Assembly: GCF_006874625.1 (NCBI RefSeq)
Contig: NZ_CP030034.1
Coordinates: 1,984,001 to 2,048,000, forward strand
DNA: 64,000 nt
Direction: 5' to 3'
Origin: Bdellovibrio sp. NC01
GTDB lineage: Bacteria > Bdellovibrionota > Bdellovibrionia > Bdellovibrionales > Bdellovibrionaceae
Part shown: piece after piece, positions 5,679 through 34,159 of the stretch
Layout of the letters: each line of letters opens with the position of its first letter
How positions within the stretch are numbered: position 1 is the stretch's first letter
Notes under the pieces: generated by a model
Database searches by the model: none
The model's input: the letters and a program-made list of their open reading frames with translations, nothing else
Told to the model about the DNA's origin: nothing
Made by a program: the position numbers and the translations under genes

Positions 5679-6560
5679 ACGGGGAGACAAGGGGAGTTGC
5701 ACTCACCCGCTTCCCCTTGCCTTTTGCGATCTGCCTCTTAATGCGACATATAGGCGAAGGACTAGTGTCTGGCGTGGTTGAAAATATGATTTTAAATGAT
5801 CGCTTAAATCGATATTTAGGAATCAATTTTAAAGCTTAAAATTGTGCACGAATTATTATCTGAAAGTTTTTAGTTATATATTTTGAAAATGATTTTTCAA
5901 AATTATTAATCTGCGCGATTTTAATTTCTAATTTGTTGAATCTAAATTTTGTTTCAAACTCGATGACGTATTCAGATCAATTTCAAATACTGAATCAAAT
6001 TGAGTTTCTTAAATTCGGCCAGAAAATATCTCAATTTAAACGATCTAAAATTAGCCCAAAAAATACATCAAAAGAACCACCTAAAAAGCTACCTTTTTGA
6101 TACTTAAATGATATCGATTTTAAAAGACCAAATTTAAACTTCGCTTTAAGCATCGAAAACCTAGGTTATTTGATGGTCCCGAAATCTCGAATTTTAGAAC
6201 CTCAAAAGAAGCATCAAAAAGGTAGGCTTTAAGATGGTCTATTTAAAGAGTTCAACTCAAGGCTTGCCAAAAACAAGGTTCACCCATGGTTTAAGACAGG
6301 GTTTTTCATCGTTAATTTGAACTAAGATAGTCGGGCGCGAAATCAGATCAGCTCGAATGCGTGTGTGAAGTCTAGGAACTCATAAACAGCTTCAATTTGA
6401 TACAAAAACCCAGCAATATTAACGTGTTATCGGCCTATATTTGAAACCACATCCATACTCATTGTTACATAATATAACTTATCAGAAGTATTTACATCCC
6501 AGTTCCCGGGTTTAAAACGGCCTTTGATTTCAACCTCTTTGCTGCTTTAATTTTAGGTTT
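5679..6560. other. 882-bp gene-free AT-rich region with inverted repeats
   Basis: No convincing coding frame, RBS-led start or protein similarity was found on either strand. It is strongly AT-rich. It contains a 22-bp imperfect palindrome at 5881-5902 and a perfect 13-bp inverted repeat, CTACCTTTTTGAT at 6089-6101 against 6213-6225, about 110 nt apart. Variants of CATCAAAA...AACC recur in both orientations between 6064 and 6225. This could hold an untranslated RNA, regulatory sites or decayed sequence; I cannot distinguish these. Confidence 0.5.
5688..5725 (+). terminator. Probable terminator after the small ASH-like gene
   Basis: CAAGGGGA (5688-5695) pairs with TCCCCTTG (5712-5719) around a 16-nt loop, followed by CCTTTT. 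The loop is long, so confidence is moderate. Confidence 0.5.
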
Positions 6561-7037
6561 ATGAAGATCAAAGATTTGAATCCCGACATTCTCGAACAGC
6601 TGGTTGAATTGGAATGTAATAATATTCTTCCTATCTTGGCTAGCGTTGGTTTGAATTTAACTCCACAGCATATGCGTGATCAATTGGAGTTCTTCAAAGA
6701 ATCTAATGTCGTTATCAGCCAAAGCTCGAATCATGTTGATGGTTTTGCGATGTATGAAATTAATAATTCCGAAGTCACTGTTATTAGTTTCAATCTTAAG
6801 AAGTTTAACGATCTGCGAATTCTATCAACTCTTTTAGATGCGATCTTTCAACATCTTAAAGATACCCCGATTGAGACAATTAAAAGTCACGCCCATCACA
6901 CCAATACTAAATCTTTAAATTTTCATCGTCGCATGGGATTTAAAGAAGTGGAAAATACTCAGCATCATATCGTATTTGAAATCAGCAAAAATGATCTACT
7001 CAGTACGATTGCAAAACGGGTCAAAAAGCCCAACTAA
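6561..7037 (+). CDS. GNAT-family N-acetyltransferase-like protein
   Basis: 158 residues. The C-terminal half shows the GNAT pattern: a beta strand SEVTVISF, a helix, then the end motif SLNFHRRMGFKEVEN, which resembles the conserved 'A-x-x-x-Y-x-x-x-G-F' segment of acetyl-CoA-dependent acetyltransferases. The R/Q-x-x-G-x-G/A acetyl-CoA loop is not recognisable (NLKKFNDLRILSTLL sits in its place), so this is a divergent or possibly inactive member. It follows the long gene-free region and ends in a bidirectional hairpin. Substrate unknown. Confidence 0.6.
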   Translation: MKIKDLNPDILEQLVELECNNILPILASVGLNLTPQHMRDQLEFFKESNVVISQSSNHVDGFAMYEINNSEVTVISFNLKKFNDLRILSTLLDAIFQHLKDTPIETIKSHAHHTNTKSLNFHRRMGFKEVENTQHHIVFEISKNDLLSTIAKRVKKPN

Positions 7038-7075
7038 AAAAAAGAGGGAGCGTGCACTCCCCTTTTCATTTTTAA
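7038..7075. terminator. Bidirectional terminator between convergent genes
   Basis: AAAAG-GGGAG pairs with CTCCCCTTTT around CGTGCA at roughly 7040-7065, with A and T runs on the two sides. It separates the GNAT gene (+) from the small secreted gene (-). Confidence 0.7.
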
Positions 7076-7112
7076 TTCCTGGACCTTCAAAGTTATTTGC
7101 AGACAACTGTCT

Positions 7113-7424
7113 TTATTCGCAAATCATTTTGCGACCGTTGATATTGACCAGTAATTTGAAATTTTCGTAAGTGATCGACCCGACGTAATATGGGTTTCCG
7201 TGTTGGACCATCGAATCTGCATTATAAAGTTCACCACGTTCATTGATGGTCAAAATCCAACCATCTGTTGATGTCCTTAAATTTGAATAGGTAATCTCGC
7301 CATTTGCACCACTAAATTTACCAGCATCTTCGCCTGTTTTAAGATCAACACACATATATTCTTTAGCCGCATGGGCTTGAACTGCCAATAAAGAAACTAG
7401 TAAACCCATAAAAAATATTTTCAT
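7113..7424 (-). CDS. Small secreted protein of unknown function
   Basis: 103 residues. An ATG four codons upstream (at 7436) exists, but the ATG at 7424 is preceded by GGAG at 6-nt spacing and opens directly into a signal peptide (MKIFFMGLLVSLLAVQAHA), so I choose it. The mature protein is about 84 residues, with two Cys (YMCVD near the start and MICE at the very end) that may form one disulfide. No domain is recognised. It is a single-gene unit, convergent with the GNAT-like gene. Confidence 0.7.
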   Translation of the reverse strand: MKIFFMGLLVSLLAVQAHAAKEYMCVDLKTGEDAGKFSGANGEITYSNLRTSTDGWILTINERGELYNADSMVQHGNPYYVGSITYENFKLLVNINGRKMICE

Positions 7425-7630
7425 AAAAATCTCCATTCTTCTTCTTATAAATAAAAAAAAGATTCTGCCTTAAGCCTGACGATAAATCGTTTGCGTGAAG
7501 CTTTAAAGCAAATGGCATTCCAATTTTTTGATAGGTATTGAAGATTTTAAGACAGTTTGAATGCTGGAGCTCTATTAAAAAGAGCTGATTGATATAAAGC
7601 CAAACGGAAGTTCACAGCTAGTGAACACTC

Positions 7631-7660
7631 AAAAAAAGGGCCCAAAATCATTTTAGGCCC
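7631..7660 (-). terminator. Intrinsic terminator of the HAD phosphatase gene
   Basis: A 10-bp stem with one mismatch, 7638-7647 against 7651-7660 (GGGCC...GGCCC). Read on the minus strand it is followed by seven T residues (7637-7631), directly after the gene's stop codon. Confidence 0.85.
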
Positions 7661-7667
7661 GCAGTTA

Positions 7668-8357
7668 CTACTTTAAAATTGTCTCTAATTCTTTGAGGTG
7701 TTTGATTTGATACTTAGGACCAACCTCTAAGCCATGATGAATCCCCGCGGGATTAAACCAGCAGGAATCGACACCGAAGGCATGCGCCCCCATAATGTCG
7801 GCTTCAGTGCGATCGCCAACAACCAGGCTTGAGGCCTTGGAAAACTTCTTCGCCATCTTGGCGCTGTATTCAAAGAAGCGCACGTCTGGCTTCGCGTATC
7901 CACAAGCTTCCGAAACGCTGACAAAACTAATAAAAGGTGCAAGTGCGGAGTTTTTAATTCGCTCTGTTTGTACGTGCGAAATTCCGTTCGTGATAATCCC
8001 AAGCTCTCCGCGATCGCTAAGGTATTTGCATAGCTCAACAGCGTAATCAATCAAGACCACCGTTTGCGGAAGAGTATTCAGATAGGTTTCACTGGCTACT
8101 TCTGGATTAAGATCAATATTATTGGCGTTAAAAACGCGACGAAAGCGTTCGACTTTTAAGGCATCTTTCGTGGTTTGACCTTTTTCAAAGGCTTTCCACA
8201 ATGCGGAGTTTTCGATTTTGTATTGCTCGTAAATAGAATTAAGATTGAGCGATTTCAATCCCATCTTTTCCATGCTTGAGAAAAACGAAAGACGTTCAGA
8301 CTCTTTAAAATCTAAAAGCGTGTCATCAAGATCAAATAAGAACAGATCATATTTCAT
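7668..8357 (-). CDS. HAD-superfamily hydrolase, YjjG-like nucleotidase/phosphatase
   Basis: 229 residues. Motif I is FLFDLDDTLLD, with the nucleophile and general-acid aspartates. Motif II is IITNG, motif III is the Lys in GYAKPD, and motif IV is VVGDRTEADI. The helical cap between motifs I and II contains ALWKAFEKGQ, as in YjjG-type 5'-nucleotidases, which dephosphorylate noncanonical pyrimidine nucleotides. A longer reading from 8405 would run through a terminator hairpin (8378-8399), so the ATG at 8357, just before the catalytic strand, is preferred. It is monocistronic, with its own terminator. Confidence 0.87.
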   Translation of the reverse strand: MKYDLFLFDLDDTLLDFKESERLSFFSSMEKMGLKSLNLNSIYEQYKIENSALWKAFEKGQTTKDALKVERFRRVFNANNIDLNPEVASETYLNTLPQTVVLIDYAVELCKYLSDRGELGIITNGISHVQTERIKNSALAPFISFVSVSEACGYAKPDVRFFEYSAKMAKKFSKASSLVVGDRTEADIMGAHAFGVDSCWFNPAGIHHGLEVGPKYQIKHLKELETILK

Positions 8358-8372
8358 CTGCGTAGTATGACA

Positions 8373-8399
8373 CCAAAAACCCGATTTGAAAATCGGGTT
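8373..8399 (-). terminator. Terminator of the KH-protein/esterase transcript
   Basis: A perfect 9-bp stem (8378-8386 with 8391-8399) and a 4-nt loop. On the minus strand it is followed by TTTTTGG. It lies between the KH gene and the HAD start, and argues against the upstream HAD start. Confidence 0.75.
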
Positions 8400-8424
8400 C
8401 TGCATAAGAATATGCCTTGGAAAT

Positions 8425-8742
8425 CTATACGGGGATTTCTACGATCGAGCGTATCCCATTACGAGCCGTCATTGCGTGGACAACGGCGCGTAGACCCATA
8501 ATCGTTTTACCTTGGGCTCCAATAACCTGACCCAAATTATCTTTCGCACAGTTCACACGATAGACCGTCGTTTTCGGGCCGACATAGGTCGTAACCGTCA
8601 CACTGCTTGGATCATCGACAAGATAACGCACCAATTTTTCAATTAAGGAACGAATCTCTTCGCGATATGCTTCTTGATCGATATCGGCGCCTTTGATTTT
8701 GAAATCAGGATTATAAGATTTTAGAGGTTCCATATCATTCAT
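8425..8742 (-). CDS. khpA: KH-domain RNA-binding protein (KhpA/YlqC family)
   Basis: 105 residues. The C-terminal 75 residues form a single type-II KH domain with the RNA-binding GxxG loop IGAQGKT, preceded by LIEKLVRYLVDDPSSV, as in KhpA/YlqC proteins, which bind small RNAs and mRNAs. About 25 extra N-terminal residues precede the domain. The ATG at 8742 lies 1 nt after the upstream esterase stop and has GGAGG 9 nt before it, which decides the start over the longer reading from 8805. The pairing with an esterase instead of the usual rpsP/ffh neighbourhood is unusual. Confidence 0.85.
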   Translation of the reverse strand: MNDMEPLKSYNPDFKIKGADIDQEAYREEIRSLIEKLVRYLVDDPSSVTVTTYVGPKTTVYRVNCAKDNLGQVIGAQGKTIMGLRAVVHAMTARNGIRSIVEIPV

Positions 8743-8743
8743 A

Positions 8744-9643
8744 TTAAAACGCCTCCCCCATGATGAAATTAGCGGTTGTCCTACGATCAAAATTACAGTG
8801 CCCACCAGGAACAGGCACCCATGTCGATTTAAATCCCAGTTTTTTAGCTAAATCAGAATAGACTTCCGAACCCTCTTGAAAGCCGAAGTCATCAGCCGTA
8901 CCCGTAGAAACATAGAACGGCATTTTCTTCGCACGATAACGCGCAATAAGCTTCAACGGATCGTGTTTGTCCCAGTCATTTTGATTTAAAAAAACTTGTC
9001 GCGAGATGCTCAACAATAATTTAACTCTGCTTGGGACAGCGTGAGTGCGTTCCGTGTAGGCAGCAATTTCTTCAGGTGTTGAGAATGGTCCGACCGTTGT
9101 GATGGCCGGGCATAATAAGGCAACCTTCGAAAATGTGTTCGGCAATTGCAACGAAGCTTGGATCGCATTGAATCCCCCCATTGATTGACCGATCAACATG
9201 CGTTTACCTTTACCAAGCCCCCCGACCTTCTTTTCAAGGAACGGCATAATATTGTTTTTGAAAAACGGAATGAGTGGGAAGCGGTGATTGTTTACCAACA
9301 ACCAGACTTCACCAAAAGAGACTGTCACAATCGTCGGGTCATATCCGCGCCAGTGCCATTTACGCTCTAGCATGCCAGTGCCAAAGCGTTGCGTGAACCA
9401 TGTTTCTTCGTTACCCATTAATCCGTGAAAGAAATAGATGATGTCCTGATTTTTGCTACGATCGACATTGCGAATACAGTATTTGAAAGTTAAACCCATT
9501 TGCGATTCAGAACCGCATGAGTAGTCGGATTTATAATTAGGCTCAGCGCTGGTATCATCATAACCAGCGTCGATTGATTGAGCATGTGCCTGGAAAGAAA
9601 GAACCGAAATTATAAGGGCGATCACCAGCGTGAATCGTCTCAT
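8744..9643 (-). CDS. Secreted alpha/beta-hydrolase esterase (esterase D/Fes-like)
   Basis: 299 residues with a clear signal peptide (ending SFQAHA-Q). The core has the oxyanion-side motif FFHGLMGNEETW, the nucleophile elbow IGQSMGGFNA (G-x-S-x-G) and a C-terminal GGHCNFD supplying the His; GTADDFGF probably carries the Asp. The order fits the putative esterase family of S-formylglutathione hydrolase, antigen-85 and enterochelin-esterase proteins. An exported location suggests ester cleavage in the periplasm or prey. It has a strong ribosome site (GGAGG) and is followed after 1 nt by the KH gene, so translation is probably coupled. Confidence 0.83.
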   Translation of the reverse strand: MRRFTLVIALIISVLSFQAHAQSIDAGYDDTSAEPNYKSDYSCGSESQMGLTFKYCIRNVDRSKNQDIIYFFHGLMGNEETWFTQRFGTGMLERKWHWRGYDPTIVTVSFGEVWLLVNNHRFPLIPFFKNNIMPFLEKKVGGLGKGKRMLIGQSMGGFNAIQASLQLPNTFSKVALLCPAITTVGPFSTPEEIAAYTERTHAVPSRVKLLLSISRQVFLNQNDWDKHDPLKLIARYRAKKMPFYVSTGTADDFGFQEGSEVYSDLAKKLGFKSTWVPVPGGHCNFDRRTTANFIMGEAF

Positions 9644-9690
9644 CGGGAACCTCCACCGTTAAGTCAGGCTCCCTTGGGCAAAACAGAAAA

Positions 9691-28411: not shown

Positions 28412-28439
28412 TTTATTTTTGAGTGTTTCAGACCGATAA
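28412..28439 (+). promoter_or_regulatory. Sigma-28 (FliA)-like promoter of the Asp-box gene
   Basis: ACCGATAA (28432-28439) ends 7 nt before the ATG at 28447. Twelve nt upstream the -35 position reads TTTATTTT (28412-28419), a partial match to TCAAGTTT. The apparent GTG start at 28423 lies within the promoter. Confidence 0.6.
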
Positions 28440-28446
28440 AAATAGA

Positions 28447-30210
28447 ATGAAAAGATACTTGGCTTCCGTCATTTTACTTGTCGCATTTAGCGTGTATTTT
28501 ACTGGCGTCTTTACTGAAAAAGGTTCGACAGATTTATCGAGCCTGAGTGAGGCACCAAGTGCTTCGCGCTCGTTCGCAAGTTTCAAATTACAACCCTTGC
28601 CATTGAAAGCCCAAGACTTTCCGAAGTTGACTTCAACTGAAGAGGCGCACTCGTATCTTGCAACTGTTCATGAACGCGTAACACAAAATTGGAAACCAAG
28701 TTATTCAGTATTCATTCCGTACTTTGATAGCTTGAACCGTCCTTATTTCCGCGAACACGATCGTGCGCAAACAGTTCCAATCACGAATGGCTTTCAAACG
28801 TTCCAAGCAGGCAAGCTTGTGACGAACTCGATTTCGCTTTCAACTTTCAATGATATTTACAGTGCGGAACTAACTCAGAAAGTTTCTGGATCTTCGCAAG
28901 ATATTTTGTGGGACCCAAAGATGGCTGTGTTTGATCAAAACGATCAAATGTACACGGTCACGCGTATGAATAAAAATCTTGCAGATGCGCCAAGCTATCT
29001 TATGTTGCAATCAAAAGATTATGGCGTGACATGGACTGCAACACCTATTGTGGGAACTCCGACTACAGCATGCGTATTTAAAAATATCAAAACGGGCGCA
29101 TGCCAAACTCCAGAGCTTTACGACATCGAAAGACCTTATTCCAAAGAAGCTTTACCTACGGCTCCAGCATTCTTGCATTATGTAGGCTCTGGGAAGCTGC
29201 CTGGTTACGAAAAAGCTCCTTCATGGTTGGGAACCTATGGTCGACTGTATTTGCAGCCCGTTAAAGACACGCCCGAAGGTTTAAAGCCCGAAGCTCCAAT
29301 CTTAATCAGCGAGATGGCGCAAGAAATTGGTTATCGCAGTGGTGGCGCTCCAAAGATCATTCATAGTGGTGAGAAATATTTTGTTGTCTGGCTTGAAGCC
29401 ACACCCTCTTACGTTCCAAAGATGGATCAAAACGGGCAGCCGATTGTTTTAGCACCCGATTCATCTGAAAATCCATTTTCTGCGATTTGGATTGCGGAAT
29501 ACAACACGCGCACTAAAATTTTGGCGAAACAAGAGTTGCTGAAAACTTGGCCCGTCAACGACACCCACAACCAACCAGGCATTGTGCGCGCAAGTGATGG
29601 CACTTTACATGTGATTGGTGGTGGTCATGGTTCACACTTTACATATACCTATTCTTTAAAACCGGATTCGATTGCTTCGTGGTCTCAAGCTGTGCCGATG
29701 AATACACAGGACTCAGGATATAAAGCGCGTTACAGCTCGCCAAATTGGACTGGTGGCAGTCAGACTTATATTTCGATGATGATTGATTCTAAAGATCAGA
29801 TTCATACGGTTTATCGCCAATGGGCTCACGATAAGTCTGTTTTTGATTTCGATTATTTTGGTGCTTTGGTTTATCAAAAAGGCAGTTACGATAAGAAAAC
29901 GAAGAAATTCGTTTGGGATGTGGCGCGCATCTTGGTTTACCCAAATGCTTCGGAATACACACACTGGTATCAATTGTTGAACCTAGACAAGCAAGATCAC
30001 TTGTATATCGAATACAGCAACTCGCGCCCTGCCGTTCCTTATTTCTTTAAAACCGCAGATGGCAAAGCGATCAACGTTTCGCCAATGTTGAACAATGCTC
30101 TTTTAAGATCAGATGATGAAGGCTTTACGTGGTACTTCCCGTCAGATCAGGACTTCATTCAGTCAGCGCAAGATAAGCCCATTCGCGTTCCAAAAACGCG
30201 GGCCGAATAA
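28447..30210 (+). CDS. Exported Asp-box (BNR/sialidase-like) beta-propeller protein
   Basis: 587 residues. A signal anchor opens the protein (YLASVILLVAFSVYFTGVF). Two Asp-box motifs (S-x-D-x-G-x-T-W) are visible: SKDYGVTW in the N-terminal third and SDDEGFTW near the C-terminus, typical of sialidase-like propellers and other BNR proteins. I do not see the Arg triad or FRIP motif of true sialidases, so enzymatic activity is not claimed. No Shine-Dalgarno sequence precedes the ATG; instead a sigma-28-like -10 ends 7 nt upstream, so the mRNA may be leaderless. The 3' end abuts the convergent binding-protein gene. It may recognise prey glycans or other surface structures (inference). Confidence 0.72.
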   Translation: MKRYLASVILLVAFSVYFTGVFTEKGSTDLSSLSEAPSASRSFASFKLQPLPLKAQDFPKLTSTEEAHSYLATVHERVTQNWKPSYSVFIPYFDSLNRPYFREHDRAQTVPITNGFQTFQAGKLVTNSISLSTFNDIYSAELTQKVSGSSQDILWDPKMAVFDQNDQMYTVTRMNKNLADAPSYLMLQSKDYGVTWTATPIVGTPTTACVFKNIKTGACQTPELYDIERPYSKEALPTAPAFLHYVGSGKLPGYEKAPSWLGTYGRLYLQPVKDTPEGLKPEAPILISEMAQEIGYRSGGAPKIIHSGEKYFVVWLEATPSYVPKMDQNGQPIVLAPDSSENPFSAIWIAEYNTRTKILAKQELLKTWPVNDTHNQPGIVRASDGTLHVIGGGHGSHFTYTYSLKPDSIASWSQAVPMNTQDSGYKARYSSPNWTGGSQTYISMMIDSKDQIHTVYRQWAHDKSVFDFDYFGALVYQKGSYDKKTKKFVWDVARILVYPNASEYTHWYQLLNLDKQDHLYIEYSNSRPAVPYFFKTADGKAINVSPMLNNALLRSDDEGFTWYFPSDQDFIQSAQDKPIRVPKTRAE

Positions 30211-31920
30211 TTAATAACGATCCAAGGCACGCCAGTCAGAAAGATTGTATTTTTTCAAAATACCCTCAAGGCGGCCGTTATCGCGCGAATTCATAAACCA
30301 TTCATTAATACGATCCCCAAGATATTCAACCTGGGGATTTTTTTGCAAACCCGCAAGCACAAAGAAGCTGAATCCAGTCATTGCGGTTGGCTGCAATTTC
30401 AAGGTCGCATCTTTTTCTGTCAGCTCATAACGAAGAACGTTGTAATCGCCAAGAGCCACATCGGCACGTTGTTCCTTCATCATCTTAATCATACGGTCCG
30501 CCACATCGACGCCTGTTAAGCGATTTCCACGCTCAACAATCTCCATGCGACCTTCATAACCAAAATCAGAATAAACAACCTTCATCTTTTTTAGCGCATT
30601 GTTATCTACTAAACTGATGTCTTCATTTTTTGGCAACAAAGCACCTGTGAAGCTGACGCCTAACGATGAACCCACAACCTGCACATCAGGCGTATAACGA
30701 ACCAAATATTGAGGTGTGATGATATAGTCGACCTTATGCTGCTGAAGTGATTGCACCAAGCGAGAATACGGCACACTTTCCAAACGCAGTTCAATACCTT
30801 GCTGACGAGCGATTTCACCTAAAATTTCAAATAGGTACCCAGTCCATACTCCCGGTCTTTTTTCGCAGATGTACGGACATAGAGGAGTTGTTCCCACTTT
30901 GAAAACAACATTTCCGCCCGGATATTTTTTAAGAGGGGTTGTTGTGGGCTTAACAACGGGTTTTGTTTCGGCAGGCACACCCATCCATCCTGGATAGGAA
31001 TTGACGTTTTGCAGAGTCACTGGGAACGTTGGAACACGAACTTTTCCAATCTCTGTCTCCCCTTTCATGACTCTGATCAAAGTGCGAATGCTACGGCGGC
31101 CAAGCTCTGCACAAAATTGCGCGGAATCGATTACAGTTAAACGACCCGCTTTGATATTTTCAATTGAAAGAGGATCACCATCGAAAGTCGCATGTTTGAT
31201 TTCGGTGCGTTTTTTCGCAAGTAATTCTTTAACGACAGAAAGACCACCACCATCATTTACGGTCAGCACAACGTCGACACTGTTTTTTTCTGGGTAATCG
31301 CGAAGGAATTTTGCGACGGCATTTTTTCCAGACTCGGGATCAACAGCTTCGTATCGCTGCACAACTTGAAAGCGGCGATGTTTTTCTCTTAAGGCATCAA
31401 AGAAACCATCCACACGCTCTGTTGTTGAAGAGACTTGTGGGTACTCGAACACCACGATTTTAATTTCTTTCTTGGCAGGAAAAAGCGAATCAATGTGATT
31501 GCCGTTATCGAAACCACCTTGATAGTTGTCACTTGTAACAAAACCAGAAAGTTTTCCGCCCACGATGTATTGATCATAGGCGATCACTGGAATGTTATGT
31601 TGATTTGCTAACTGCAAACCTTCTGCAAGAGCGGCGTTGTCTGTCGGCTGAATGATAATAGCATCAGAAGATTTTTTTACGGCTTGTTTAAGTTGCTCAA
31701 CCTGCTTGATGATTCCATCGCGGCCTTCACCAGCGACGTAAGCAGTCAGCTCAATCTTATCAAGATTTTTTGCGTTGAATTTGGCGGTCTCTTCTTCAAG
31801 CCCCTTGCGCATTAAAACTTGGCCTTCGATTTTCATGCTCCAGTAGAGCACGGAAACCTTCCACGTTTTCGCTTCAGCCAAATGGCAAAATAAAAGAATA
31901 AACAAAAAAATTCGAATCAC
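30211..31920 (-). CDS. Double periplasmic-binding protein: sugar-type domain fused to amino-acid-type domain
   Basis: 569 residues, GTG start, signal peptide to LAEA-K. Residues of about 20-315 are a type I periplasmic-binding domain of the ribose/xylose group (AIIIQPTDNAALAEGLQLAN, VIAYDQYI, VVLTVNDGGGLSVV, ATFDGDPLSIENI). A Pro/Thr linker (about 318-340) joins it to a complete SBP_bac_3-like domain (VFKVGTTPLCPYICE, WTGYLFEILGEIARQQGIEL, QQHKVDYIITPQYLVRYTPD). These two folds normally serve different ABC transporters. No permease, ATPase, kinase or chemoreceptor gene is adjacent, so it may act as a sensor input or a stand-alone binder. Confidence 0.83.
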   Translation of the reverse strand: MIRIFLFILLFCHLAEAKTWKVSVLYWSMKIEGQVLMRKGLEEETAKFNAKNLDKIELTAYVAGEGRDGIIKQVEQLKQAVKKSSDAIIIQPTDNAALAEGLQLANQHNIPVIAYDQYIVGGKLSGFVTSDNYQGGFDNGNHIDSLFPAKKEIKIVVFEYPQVSSTTERVDGFFDALREKHRRFQVVQRYEAVDPESGKNAVAKFLRDYPEKNSVDVVLTVNDGGGLSVVKELLAKKRTEIKHATFDGDPLSIENIKAGRLTVIDSAQFCAELGRRSIRTLIRVMKGETEIGKVRVPTFPVTLQNVNSYPGWMGVPAETKPVVKPTTTPLKKYPGGNVVFKVGTTPLCPYICEKRPGVWTGYLFEILGEIARQQGIELRLESVPYSRLVQSLQQHKVDYIITPQYLVRYTPDVQVVGSSLGVSFTGALLPKNEDISLVDNNALKKMKVVYSDFGYEGRMEIVERGNRLTGVDVADRMIKMMKEQRADVALGDYNVLRYELTEKDATLKLQPTAMTGFSFFVLAGLQKNPQVEYLGDRINEWFMNSRDNGRLEGILKKYNLSDWRALDRY

Positions 31921-32041: not shown

Positions 32042-32968
32042 TTAGTACAATTCTACGCGATCGTTTTCTTTAAATCCGGAGCCCGAGTGGATGACAGCAA
32101 TGGCGCCGTCATTGCCAAAATAACTGATGACTTCAAGGGTTCCCTTGAGTCTTCCTGGAACACGACCAATATGAGTTCCACTTTCTGGATCATACACGTC
32201 GTCACCGTCTTCCATCACTTTTAAAAGATCGCCCATTTGCAAACCTGAAATTTTCCCGACGTTTAAATAAATGCGATCACCATTGATCGCGGCGATGCGA
32301 CCTTCCCAAGCGACTTTTTCAATCGAGCCCAGCACTTGCGGTGTGAAATCCAAGAAAGCATCTTTCACAAGAACTTCGATCATCTCTGGGTTGTTCTGCA
32401 AATACTTGTCTGTTTCAACACGTTCAGCGACACGCACACCTTGTTCTTCCAAAGTGACAGTTTTAACCGTGTTGAAAACTTCATTTCCTGTACGAGTTGT
32501 CACCACGCGAACTTGAGCCACAACTTCGAACACAGAAGTTAAATGACGAACGATACCGACGTTATCAGATTTACGTTTGATGCGAATATCATTGATCTTA
32601 CCTTCAAGCACGGCATTAACGCCCAATGCTTTTGCGGCTTTCGCAACATCGGCCAGTTTGTATTGGCCATTTTCCATCATTTTAGAAAGATCAAGATTGA
32701 GCTCTTTGCTATCAAGAGCAATCACGTCGCCTGAACGATTCAAATCCTGAATGAACGCACTTCGCGCGCGATCACGGAATTCTTGTGGACGTTGAGTCGA
32801 CGTATCCAAGAACGGCAACACCATAAGGCGTTTTCTTGGCGAAGAGTCTTCTTTGCGCGACATTTGGTTGTCGTCGCGAATATCACGTTTCATCGTTGGG
32901 TTTGTGCGATCTGTTGTTACACATCCCGCAAATGCTAAAACCAGCAACAGACTTAAAACTGCCTTCAC
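32042..32968 (-). CDS. Lipoprotein with FlgT/CsgG-like envelope domains
   Basis: 308 residues, GTG start with GGAGG upstream. The lipobox is LAFAGC. A TolB/CsgG-like N-terminal fold (RLMVLPFLDTS, VNAVLEGKINDIRI) precedes a C-terminal domain resembling FlgT_C: IYLNVGKISGLQMGDLLKV, DPESGTHIGRVPG and LEVISYFGNDGA. FlgT forms the H-ring around the basal body of sheathed flagella. It directly follows an exported gene with a possible FlgT_N domain (9-nt gap), so the two may supply the domains that are joined in FlgT elsewhere. This equivalence is inference from fold-level similarity. Confidence 0.65.
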   Translation of the reverse strand: MKAVLSLLLVLAFAGCVTTDRTNPTMKRDIRDDNQMSRKEDSSPRKRLMVLPFLDTSTQRPQEFRDRARSAFIQDLNRSGDVIALDSKELNLDLSKMMENGQYKLADVAKAAKALGVNAVLEGKINDIRIKRKSDNVGIVRHLTSVFEVVAQVRVVTTRTGNEVFNTVKTVTLEEQGVRVAERVETDKYLQNNPEMIEVLVKDAFLDFTPQVLGSIEKVAWEGRIAAINGDRIYLNVGKISGLQMGDLLKVMEDGDDVYDPESGTHIGRVPGRLKGTLEVISYFGNDGAIAVIHSGSGFKENDRVELY

Positions 32969-32977
32969 CGCAACCTC

Positions 32978-34159
32978 CTATTGGGCAAATTTAAGAACGA
33001 TTTCATCCTGCGCATCTGAAACTTTCGAAAGCTTCTTGCCATCGAAATCCAGAGCTTCAATTTTTTGCGCTAATTCAGACGCTGAAGCCGACGTATCAAC
33101 TTCATAACTAAGTCCTTCAGAGCTCACCACACGTTCACGGATGTTTTTCACTTGCGTGATTTGTGAACGGATTTTTTCTTTCATAGCTTCCATCATCGGA
33201 AGACCTTGGGCACCTTTGATCGTCACACGAATGATCGATGTTCCCAAAGAACCACGCTGCCAAGCTTCAAAGACTTGCGAAGCCAAATCATTCGCCGTGC
33301 CTTCCAAAACTTCGCGCATCTTTTTATCCACAGAAGTTTCAAATGCACCAGAATCCGTCGTAAATTTACGAGACACATCTGCAATAGGACGCGCATTACT
33401 TACCTGTGTCGCCGTCATACGAATTTCAATTGTATAGTTGCTGCCTTTTTCTTCTTTGCTGAACAAGACCTGACCATCAATTAAAACCGGCGCATTAAAA
33501 TACTGAGCGAAGAATTGCGCATCTTCGCCCGCGATTTTTTCATTTTGGAATTGCGGCGGTACACTTGCGCCAAGACCTGATTCCAATGGTTTGATCACAT
33601 AGAAGTTTTTAACCTGGAATGAATTGCGAAGCGCTTCTTCAACCGCACGGCCTTCTTTAAATAAGAAACCTGCTGGGTTTTTATCTACCGGCTGCCACCA
33701 ACGATAGCTACGGCCCTGCACGCGATCCACAAAGCTAATTGCAGGGATCACAACCGGAATCGTGTCGTTTTCATTGAGCAACGAATTTTCCTGCAGCATT
33801 TGTTTCAAGTCGCGCAAAGACACTTTCATCGCGACTGACATTTTGTATTCTTCACCTTCTTGAGTCAGATTCGAAGGTTTAGAAAACGGAATGTAGCGTG
33901 CTGAGTTTTTGATAACTTTATTTTGCAGCAAAGTTTTATTTTTCGTAAAACGATCTTCACCGATCAATTCACGAATCACTTCTTCAGAGATTTTTTGAGA
34001 AGCTTGATTTTGAATATCAGCTTTCGCAGCTTGCGGAGTCGTTTCTTTTGAAACTCCTGAAAAAGTTCTTTCCAAGAGTTCCGCTTGTTGTGCGAATGCT
34101 GGGGTCATTAATGTGCAGGCAGTAATCAGTGTTGCGATCCAAGTTGAAGTTCTGCGCAT
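32978..34159 (-). CDS. Exported protein, possible FlgT N/M-like partner
   Basis: 393 residues, signal peptide to TPAFA-Q, mature protein soluble. The first 100 mature residues have the alternating-helix pattern of FlgT_N domains, with the ending VAMKVSLRDLKQMLQENSLL. The middle (about 130-280) resembles a TolB/FlgT_M fold (PVVIPAISFVDR, FNAPVLIDGQVL), and the last 120 residues are a further alpha/beta domain with two BON-like strands. Its ribosome site GGAG overlaps the end of dnaE, 3 nt away, so it is coupled to dnaE. A role in flagellar sheath or outer-membrane assembly is plausible but not shown. Confidence 0.6.
   Translation of the reverse strand: MRRTSTWIATLITACTLMTPAFAQQAELLERTFSGVSKETTPQAAKADIQNQASQKISEEVIRELIGEDRFTKNKTLLQNKVIKNSARYIPFSKPSNLTQEGEEYKMSVAMKVSLRDLKQMLQENSLLNENDTIPVVIPAISFVDRVQGRSYRWWQPVDKNPAGFLFKEGRAVEEALRNSFQVKNFYVIKPLESGLGASVPPQFQNEKIAGEDAQFFAQYFNAPVLIDGQVLFSKEEKGSNYTIEIRMTATQVSNARPIADVSRKFTTDSGAFETSVDKKMREVLEGTANDLASQVFEAWQRGSLGTSIIRVTIKGAQGLPMMEAMKEKIRSQITQVKNIRERVVSSEGLSYEVDTSASASELAQKIEALDFDGKKLSKVSDAQDEIVLKFAQ

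Follow-up and report, generated by a model that had tools for sequence, protein, structure and literature searches.

A fused type I–type II periplasmic binding protein of Bdellovibrio sp. NC01 and a possible role in sensing

The binding proteins LuxP and TorT both have type I folds. According to PMC8534201, LuxP/LuxQ and TorT/TorS each consist of a binding protein and a sensor kinase, and BvgS and EvgS carry two clamshells per sensory polypeptide. Both clamshells of BvgS are type II domains, attached to a kinase in the membrane. GlnPQ likewise has two type II binding domains on one chain, fused to an ABC permease. In the ectodomain of eukaryotic ionotropic glutamate receptors (iGluRs) a type I domain (ATD) is followed by a type II domain (LBD), and a bacterial binding-protein origin is accepted for both (PMC3483616). 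Binding proteins are described in PMC11113362 as activating chemoreceptors, kinases and c-di-GMP enzymes, with the genes adjacent in only 3 of the 11 studied chemoreceptor couples, and with binding proteins whose genes lie near those of AgtS and AruS failing to activate these two kinases. As these sets did not interact, caution is needed when function is inferred from the adjacency of a kinase and a binding protein. SBP_bac_3 is reported as an arginine sensor in RmcA (PMC8846402), and 69% of the binding proteins of Bdellovibrio bacteriovorus HD100 are SBP_bac_3 proteins (PMC9602780).

The gene described here lies in a 64-kb window, the whole stretch of DNA that was analysed (positions 1984001-2048000), of the complete 3,975,853-base genome of Bdellovibrio sp. 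NC01. It is one unbroken open reading frame (ORF) with a GTG start, encoding 569 amino acids and stopping after its second domain, without a transmembrane kinase (Table 1). A scan for promoters and terminators found nothing above shuffled sequences.

Table 1. Features of the fusion gene and of two upstream genes, in window coordinates.
Feature	Position	Strand	Basis
Fused two-clamshell periplasmic protein	30211..31920	-	ORF, Pfam, AlphaFold2 model
Putative signal peptide, residues ~1-17	31870..31920	-	Hydrophobic N-terminus by eye; model helix 2-13
Type I domain (ribose-binding-protein fold, Peripla_BP_4), residues ~18-314	30979..31869	-	Pfam, model, fold match
Flexible linker, residues ~315-338	30907..30978	-	Low pLDDT; variable among 21 fusions
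Type II domain (SBP_bac_3), residues ~339-569, CPYxC subfamily	30214..30906	-	Pfam, model, alignment
308-aa lipoprotein-like gene (by eye), upstream	32042..32968	-	Syntenic in genus; no Pfam match
393-aa secreted-protein-like gene (by eye), upstream	32978..34159	-	Syntenic in genus; no Pfam match

An earlier note on this DNA had proposed that a type I and a type II binding domain are fused in this protein, and this was borne out by both Pfam cut-offs and by a two-domain AlphaFold2 model. Pfam placed PF13407 (Peripla_BP_4) at residues 32-288 (E 7.4e-37, 127.7 bits against a cut-off of 35.1) and PF00497 (SBP_bac_3) at residues 342-402 (E 1.7e-7, 31.5 bits against 26.4). The model of the whole protein, built from 18 aligned copies, had two folded domains with a mean pLDDT of 85.1 and a pTM of 0.85, and among longer stretches only residues 320-330 fell below a pLDDT of 50. 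The note's description of the linker as Pro/Thr-rich holds for the NC01 copy, which is rich in Pro, Thr and Lys; the length and sequence of the linker vary among the 21 fusions. Domain I has the fold of the ribose-binding proteins (2ioy, Z 32.0, 272 residues, 2.2 Å).

Domain II modelled alone was continuous over 230 residues (pLDDT 87.5), and in fold it matched sensor domains as well as amino-acid binding proteins of type II. The histidine-kinase sensor domain 3h7m (Z 20.1, 214 residues, 3.5 Å) was tied with GluR0 (1ii5, Z 20.0, 208 residues, 2.7 Å), and the VFT2 domain of BvgS was also among the matches (3mpk, Z 18.4, 209 residues, 3.9 Å). Searched against PDB sequences at E<=1e-10, the domain II profile matched only SBD1-SBD2 of GlnPQ (6h30, E 1.2e-15). 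Residues C348, C352, R408 and D492 were invariant in 18 aligned fusions; in a separate alignment of domain II, R408 was invariant in all rows and an acid, D or E, stood at the position of D492 in 12 of 12. It is plausible that domain II binds an amino acid. Such binding is not secured, because the alignment puts R408 two residues off the canonical carboxylate Arg, as judged from what we take to be the canonical ligand-binding positions of the type II family.

Like LuxP-LuxQ and TorT-TorS, the fusion would have a type I protein as a ligand-binding half of a sensor, and close relatives of its domain I are encoded beside a sensor kinase, in their case one with a single sCache-type sensor. Unlike those systems, its own genome has no adjacent or detectable cognate kinase, and a type II clamshell is what its domain I is joined to. 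It shares with BvgS, EvgS and GlnPQ the presence of two binding domains on one chain, but it joins type I to type II, has no kinase or membrane part and is not fused to an ABC permease. The iGluRs were the only well-known proteins to come up with the same order of type I then type II, and chains of NMDA, GluD2 and GluA2 were aligned by Foldseek to the complete model across ~700 columns (E between 1e-17 and 1e-15). However, the fusion has no pore between its type II lobes, its domain I is ribose-type and its domains are differently oriented (rmsd >20 Å). The likeness is one of architecture and probably reflects convergence rather than descent, given the ribose-family domain I, the missing pore and the different spatial arrangement. 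We consider the folds ordinary, and their combination and partner history unusual. The literature found by searching, in which subscription journals are thinly covered, did not describe this architecture, and we make no claim that a description is absent. The available parts of PMC11271337 and PMC8846402 contained nothing on the fusion protein, and the partly available literature under the HD100 loci Bd2045-Bd2050, numbers that were guessed from position, concerned other matters only.

A profile of 18 fusion copies, searched against 368 genomes of the phylum at E<=1e-25, matched in 33 genomes. Intact, full-length fusions were present as 28 copies in 19 of the 368 genomes, some of them single-contig. 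The same genus accounted for nearly all of these, with the fusion in 19 of its 24 genomes (18 intact, one broken; the genomes without it are G004, G007, G014, G016 and G024); the other carrier, G077, belongs to another family. Among the 66 family genomes, the full-length fusion occurred in the same genus only. In the broken case (G010, L068:7268-9129) the fusion is broken into two ORFs that overlap, and a short stretch at about residues 213-233 is repeated in them. This resembles a frameshift combined with a small tandem duplication, or else an error of sequencing. Several genomes had second copies elsewhere, and G013 and G011 had tandem copies. The second copies in G022, G015 and G013 (L073, L074, L080) lay near a 707-aa gene; the one such gene that was scanned (L074:3451-5574) had no Pfam match.

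Upstream of the fusion, 17 of 17 other genus genomes had, as in the window, the 308-aa gene and a 1180-aa gene that by eye encodes DNA polymerase III alpha, a count made on first-group copies retrieved with their neighbourhood. The 393-aa gene was predicted in all of these except L064 (16 of 17); there the ORF caller retained an ORF on the opposite strand. Throughout the genus, the 308-aa and 393-aa genes (32042-34159) remain flanked by the polymerase gene on one side and the fusion on the other. Downstream neighbours varied and included a class II tRNA synthetase, a luciferase-like monooxygenase, one MCP (G021) and others. No receptor gene was conserved beside the fusion across the genus neighbourhoods compared, and no neighbour was taken as its partner. 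A plasmid-borne origin was rejected, as tblastn at E<=1e-20 found no match in 72,556 plasmid records.

The partners of the type I subfamily divided its 33 genomes into three classes. The type I domain was fused in 20 genomes (19 intact, one broken), followed by a separate, adjacent type II gene in 6 (G034, G108, G110, G111, G112, G189) and linked to an sCache-type kinase in 7; no genome had both a type II and a kinase partner. A seventh separate pair was found in a gammaproteobacterial MAG, taken as binned (Neptuniibacter, L102). All separate pairs (7 of 7) had a start, followed by a signal-peptide-like stretch, at -14 to +8 nt relative to the stop of the type I gene, and domain II in the fusion is without the signal peptide that the separate type II genes carry. 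The neighbours of the separate pairs (aldehyde dehydrogenase, RoxA-like cytochrome, transketolase, an AcrB-type pump by the G189 pair, helicase, an ion-channel gene by the L102 pair) revealed no common partner.

The kinase gene directly followed the type I gene in six genomes (G044, G053, G068, G114, G115, G116), and in G067 the type I gene ended one contig and the kinase began another. The phylum kinases that were scanned (L070, L071, L137, L099) had HisKA and HATPase_c domains plus PAS or receiver domains. Outside the phylum, receptor-linked type I genes were found in four MAG loci, L095 and L096 (Campylobacterales), L104 (Candidatus Tharpella) and L101, and the L095 relative adjoins a HisKA/HATPase kinase. 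The sensor was identified by Pfam as sCache_3_2, above the cut-off in L095 and L101 and below it in L070, L071 and L137 (L099 was not listed). Ten sensor regions aligned with common invariant residues; identity to L070 was 41% for L137, 40% for L099 and 24-31% for the others. In L101, a proteobacterial MAG (5893-9650), the type I gene was followed by an sCache-PAS-GGDEF-EAL protein, with no kinase. The same sensory front end may therefore act on c-di-GMP turnover at this locus, in place of a kinase.

Profile searches gave the same division. The kinase-sensor profile (10 rows, E<=1e-6) matched in 10 of 368 genomes, with seven strong matches (E 1e-83 or better) and three weak ones (1e-12 to 3e-7). 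The genomes with strong matches were precisely the seven in which the type I gene has no type II partner, and there was no match at this threshold in any of the 26 that have one. The profile of the type II subfamily (E<=1e-15) matched in 40 of 368 genomes; the 26 with E<1e-70 were exactly the fusion and pair genomes, and the next best match was at 6e-29. As members of these sets had gone into both profiles, their informative part is the absence of matches elsewhere and from each other's genomes.

The predicted pocket of domain I was constant across these classes. Thirteen pocket positions were defined by alignment with the ribose contacts of RbsB, using what we take to be its contact list, the first four being placed by ungapped offset. 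Ten of the 13 (W27, I31, Q34, Q91, D116, Q117, R169, N222, D247 and Q268) were identical in 39 of 39 sequences from all three partner settings, compared with 35 strictly invariant columns among the 297 of domain I overall (hypergeometric p 3e-8). D116, R169, N222, D247 and Q268 correspond to D89, R141, N190, D215 and Q235 of RbsB, presumed ribose contacts. The remaining five of the ten differ from RbsB, so that half of this pocket is unlike that of the ribose-binding protein. As the positions are invariant whichever partner is present, the ligand of domain I, to judge from these residues, is probably the same in all settings, and would be small and hydroxylated and not necessarily ribose.

A maximum-likelihood tree was built from 41 type I domains (21 fusions, 7 pairs, 11 receptor-linked and 2 transporter-linked). 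The 20 Bdellovibrio fusion rows formed one clade (support 100/99), to which the G034 pair was next (97/93). The G077 fusion sat on a long branch (1.51) and may represent a separate fusion event. The root was a single, very distant outgroup, which leaves the direction of change between kinase and type II partner undecided by the tree; the kinase-partner state presumably came first.

Based on these data, we propose that the fusion is secreted and soluble and works in the periplasm as a two-headed binding protein for sensing, with a domain I that came from a sensing type I protein, a reading to which we give a probability of about one half. Its job in sensing, the classes of its ligands, its docking on a separate receptor and a joint read-out of the two ligands are parts of this proposal that we infer. 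Sensing is a better reading than transport, since the closest non-fused relatives of domain I adjoin kinases or a c-di-GMP receptor and the NC01 genome lacks matching permeases. The earlier note's idea that a sugar and an amino acid from prey are integrated into one signal stays conjectural. The note had also suggested seeking a partner sensor or transporter elsewhere in the genome, and no cognate one emerged among the families searched for. A search of 66 family genomes, in which the query was the periplasmic region of the G044 kinase, found no kinase-sensor homologue in the NC01 genome, which also had no sCache_3_2 domain (PF17203, present in 2 of 24 same-genus genomes) and no polar-amino-acid permease domain TIGR01726 (present in 12 of 14 control genomes).

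One alternative is uptake, in which the fusion would feed solutes to ABC or other transporters encoded elsewhere, as a binding protein that is shared or has dual specificity. Both folds are those of classic transport binding proteins, the NC01 genome has 15 BPD_transp_1 and 6 BPD_transp_2 matches, and distant type I relatives (~24% identity) lie in CUT2-type operons with an ABC ATPase and BPD_transp_2 (G041, as scanned, and G042, from its layout). However, the six BPD_transp_2 matches form three pairs that are already with binding proteins of other families, two with Peripla_BP_6 and one with Bmp, and TIGR01726 is absent. No ABC importer gene was recognised among the scanned neighbours, a subset, of the fusion, pair or kinase loci. 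The statement that no transporter lies near the gene is accurate for ABC importers, since the nearest BPD_transp_1 permease match (genome position 1971384) and the nearest BPD_transp_2 match (1851795-1852613) are both outside the window. The only PF13407 match in the genome is the fusion protein itself, and this, together with the lack of TIGR01726 and the otherwise served BPD_transp_2 pairs, led us to read the fusion as sensory; uptake we regard as unlikely.

A sensory protein might also still signal to a kinase that descends from the sCache-type one but is by now too divergent to be detected. Sensors diverge fast, as the identities to L070 given above illustrate, but the kinase-sensor profile found nothing in 26 of 26 type II-partner genomes, and PF17203 is as rare in the genus as stated. 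We therefore think such a kinase rather improbable.

It is more doubtful still that the protein works without any receptor, with domain II turned enzyme or the pair buffering or chaperoning a ligand. An amino-acid binding protein gave rise to cyclohexadienyl dehydratase, and the ancestral precursor of this enzyme, 5t0w, was among the domain II fold matches (Z 18.2, 209 residues, 3.6 Å), although not above the binding proteins; the failure to find a receptor also fits this explanation. On the other side, we recognised no catalytic motif in the sequence, and the setting of the relatives beside sensor kinases does not suggest catalysis.

A misassembly, a frameshift or a recent accidental fusion, which the separate pairs in relatives and the broken ORF of G010 might have suggested, is ruled out by the 28 intact copies in 19 genomes, single-contig ones included, and by the 20-row Bdellovibrio clade. 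The earlier note had held that a split gene pair in homologues would imply such an origin. Pairs do exist, in six genomes and the one gammaproteobacterial MAG, and they carry no such implication, because the Bdellovibrio clade is supported, the signal peptide of domain II has been lost and both halves are conserved.

If the fusion is sensory, its history may have run as follows. Domain I would descend from a sensing type I protein that, in relatives, is encoded beside an sCache-type membrane receptor. This receptor would have been lost and its place in the neighbourhood taken by a dedicated type II protein, which would have stayed separate in some Bacteriovorax-like genomes and become fused in Bdellovibrio. 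Domain I would close on a small polyol-like ligand, the same for all partners, and domain II on an amino-acid-like one; the joined pair would then dock on a membrane receptor encoded elsewhere, whether a chemoreceptor, a kinase or a c-di-GMP enzyme, and report both ligands. We speculate, tentatively and with the odds against this full version, that such a receptor swap in Bdellovibrio ancestors yielded a free-floating coincidence sensor resembling an iGluR ectodomain, in which one clamshell, on closing, tunes the other and which is read by a receptor encoded elsewhere during prey search or digestion.

If the sensory reading is correct, the fusion would unite two unrelated clamshell folds in one soluble sensor. 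Little is known of the metabolic cues of these predators, and the fusion would provide a two-input signal that can be tested in them; for the type I and type II order of glutamate receptors it would serve as a simple model from bacteria. The alternation of partners, kinase or type II and never both, would represent a binding protein that swapped its partner with its predicted pocket unchanged. The SBP_bac_3 proteins of this predator should not be presumed to be transport proteins.

There were 17 SBP_bac_3 matches in the NC01 genome, the nearest of them 16.6 kb from any BPD_transp_1 match, and from their positions and the absence of TIGR01726 these proteins look transport-orphan as a group. One of the matches (L044) appeared by eye to be an MltF-like combination of a binding domain and a transglycosylase. 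On its other side, the fusion gene abuts a BNR-repeat gene (28423-30210, plus strand) tail to tail, with 0 bases between the two stop codons.
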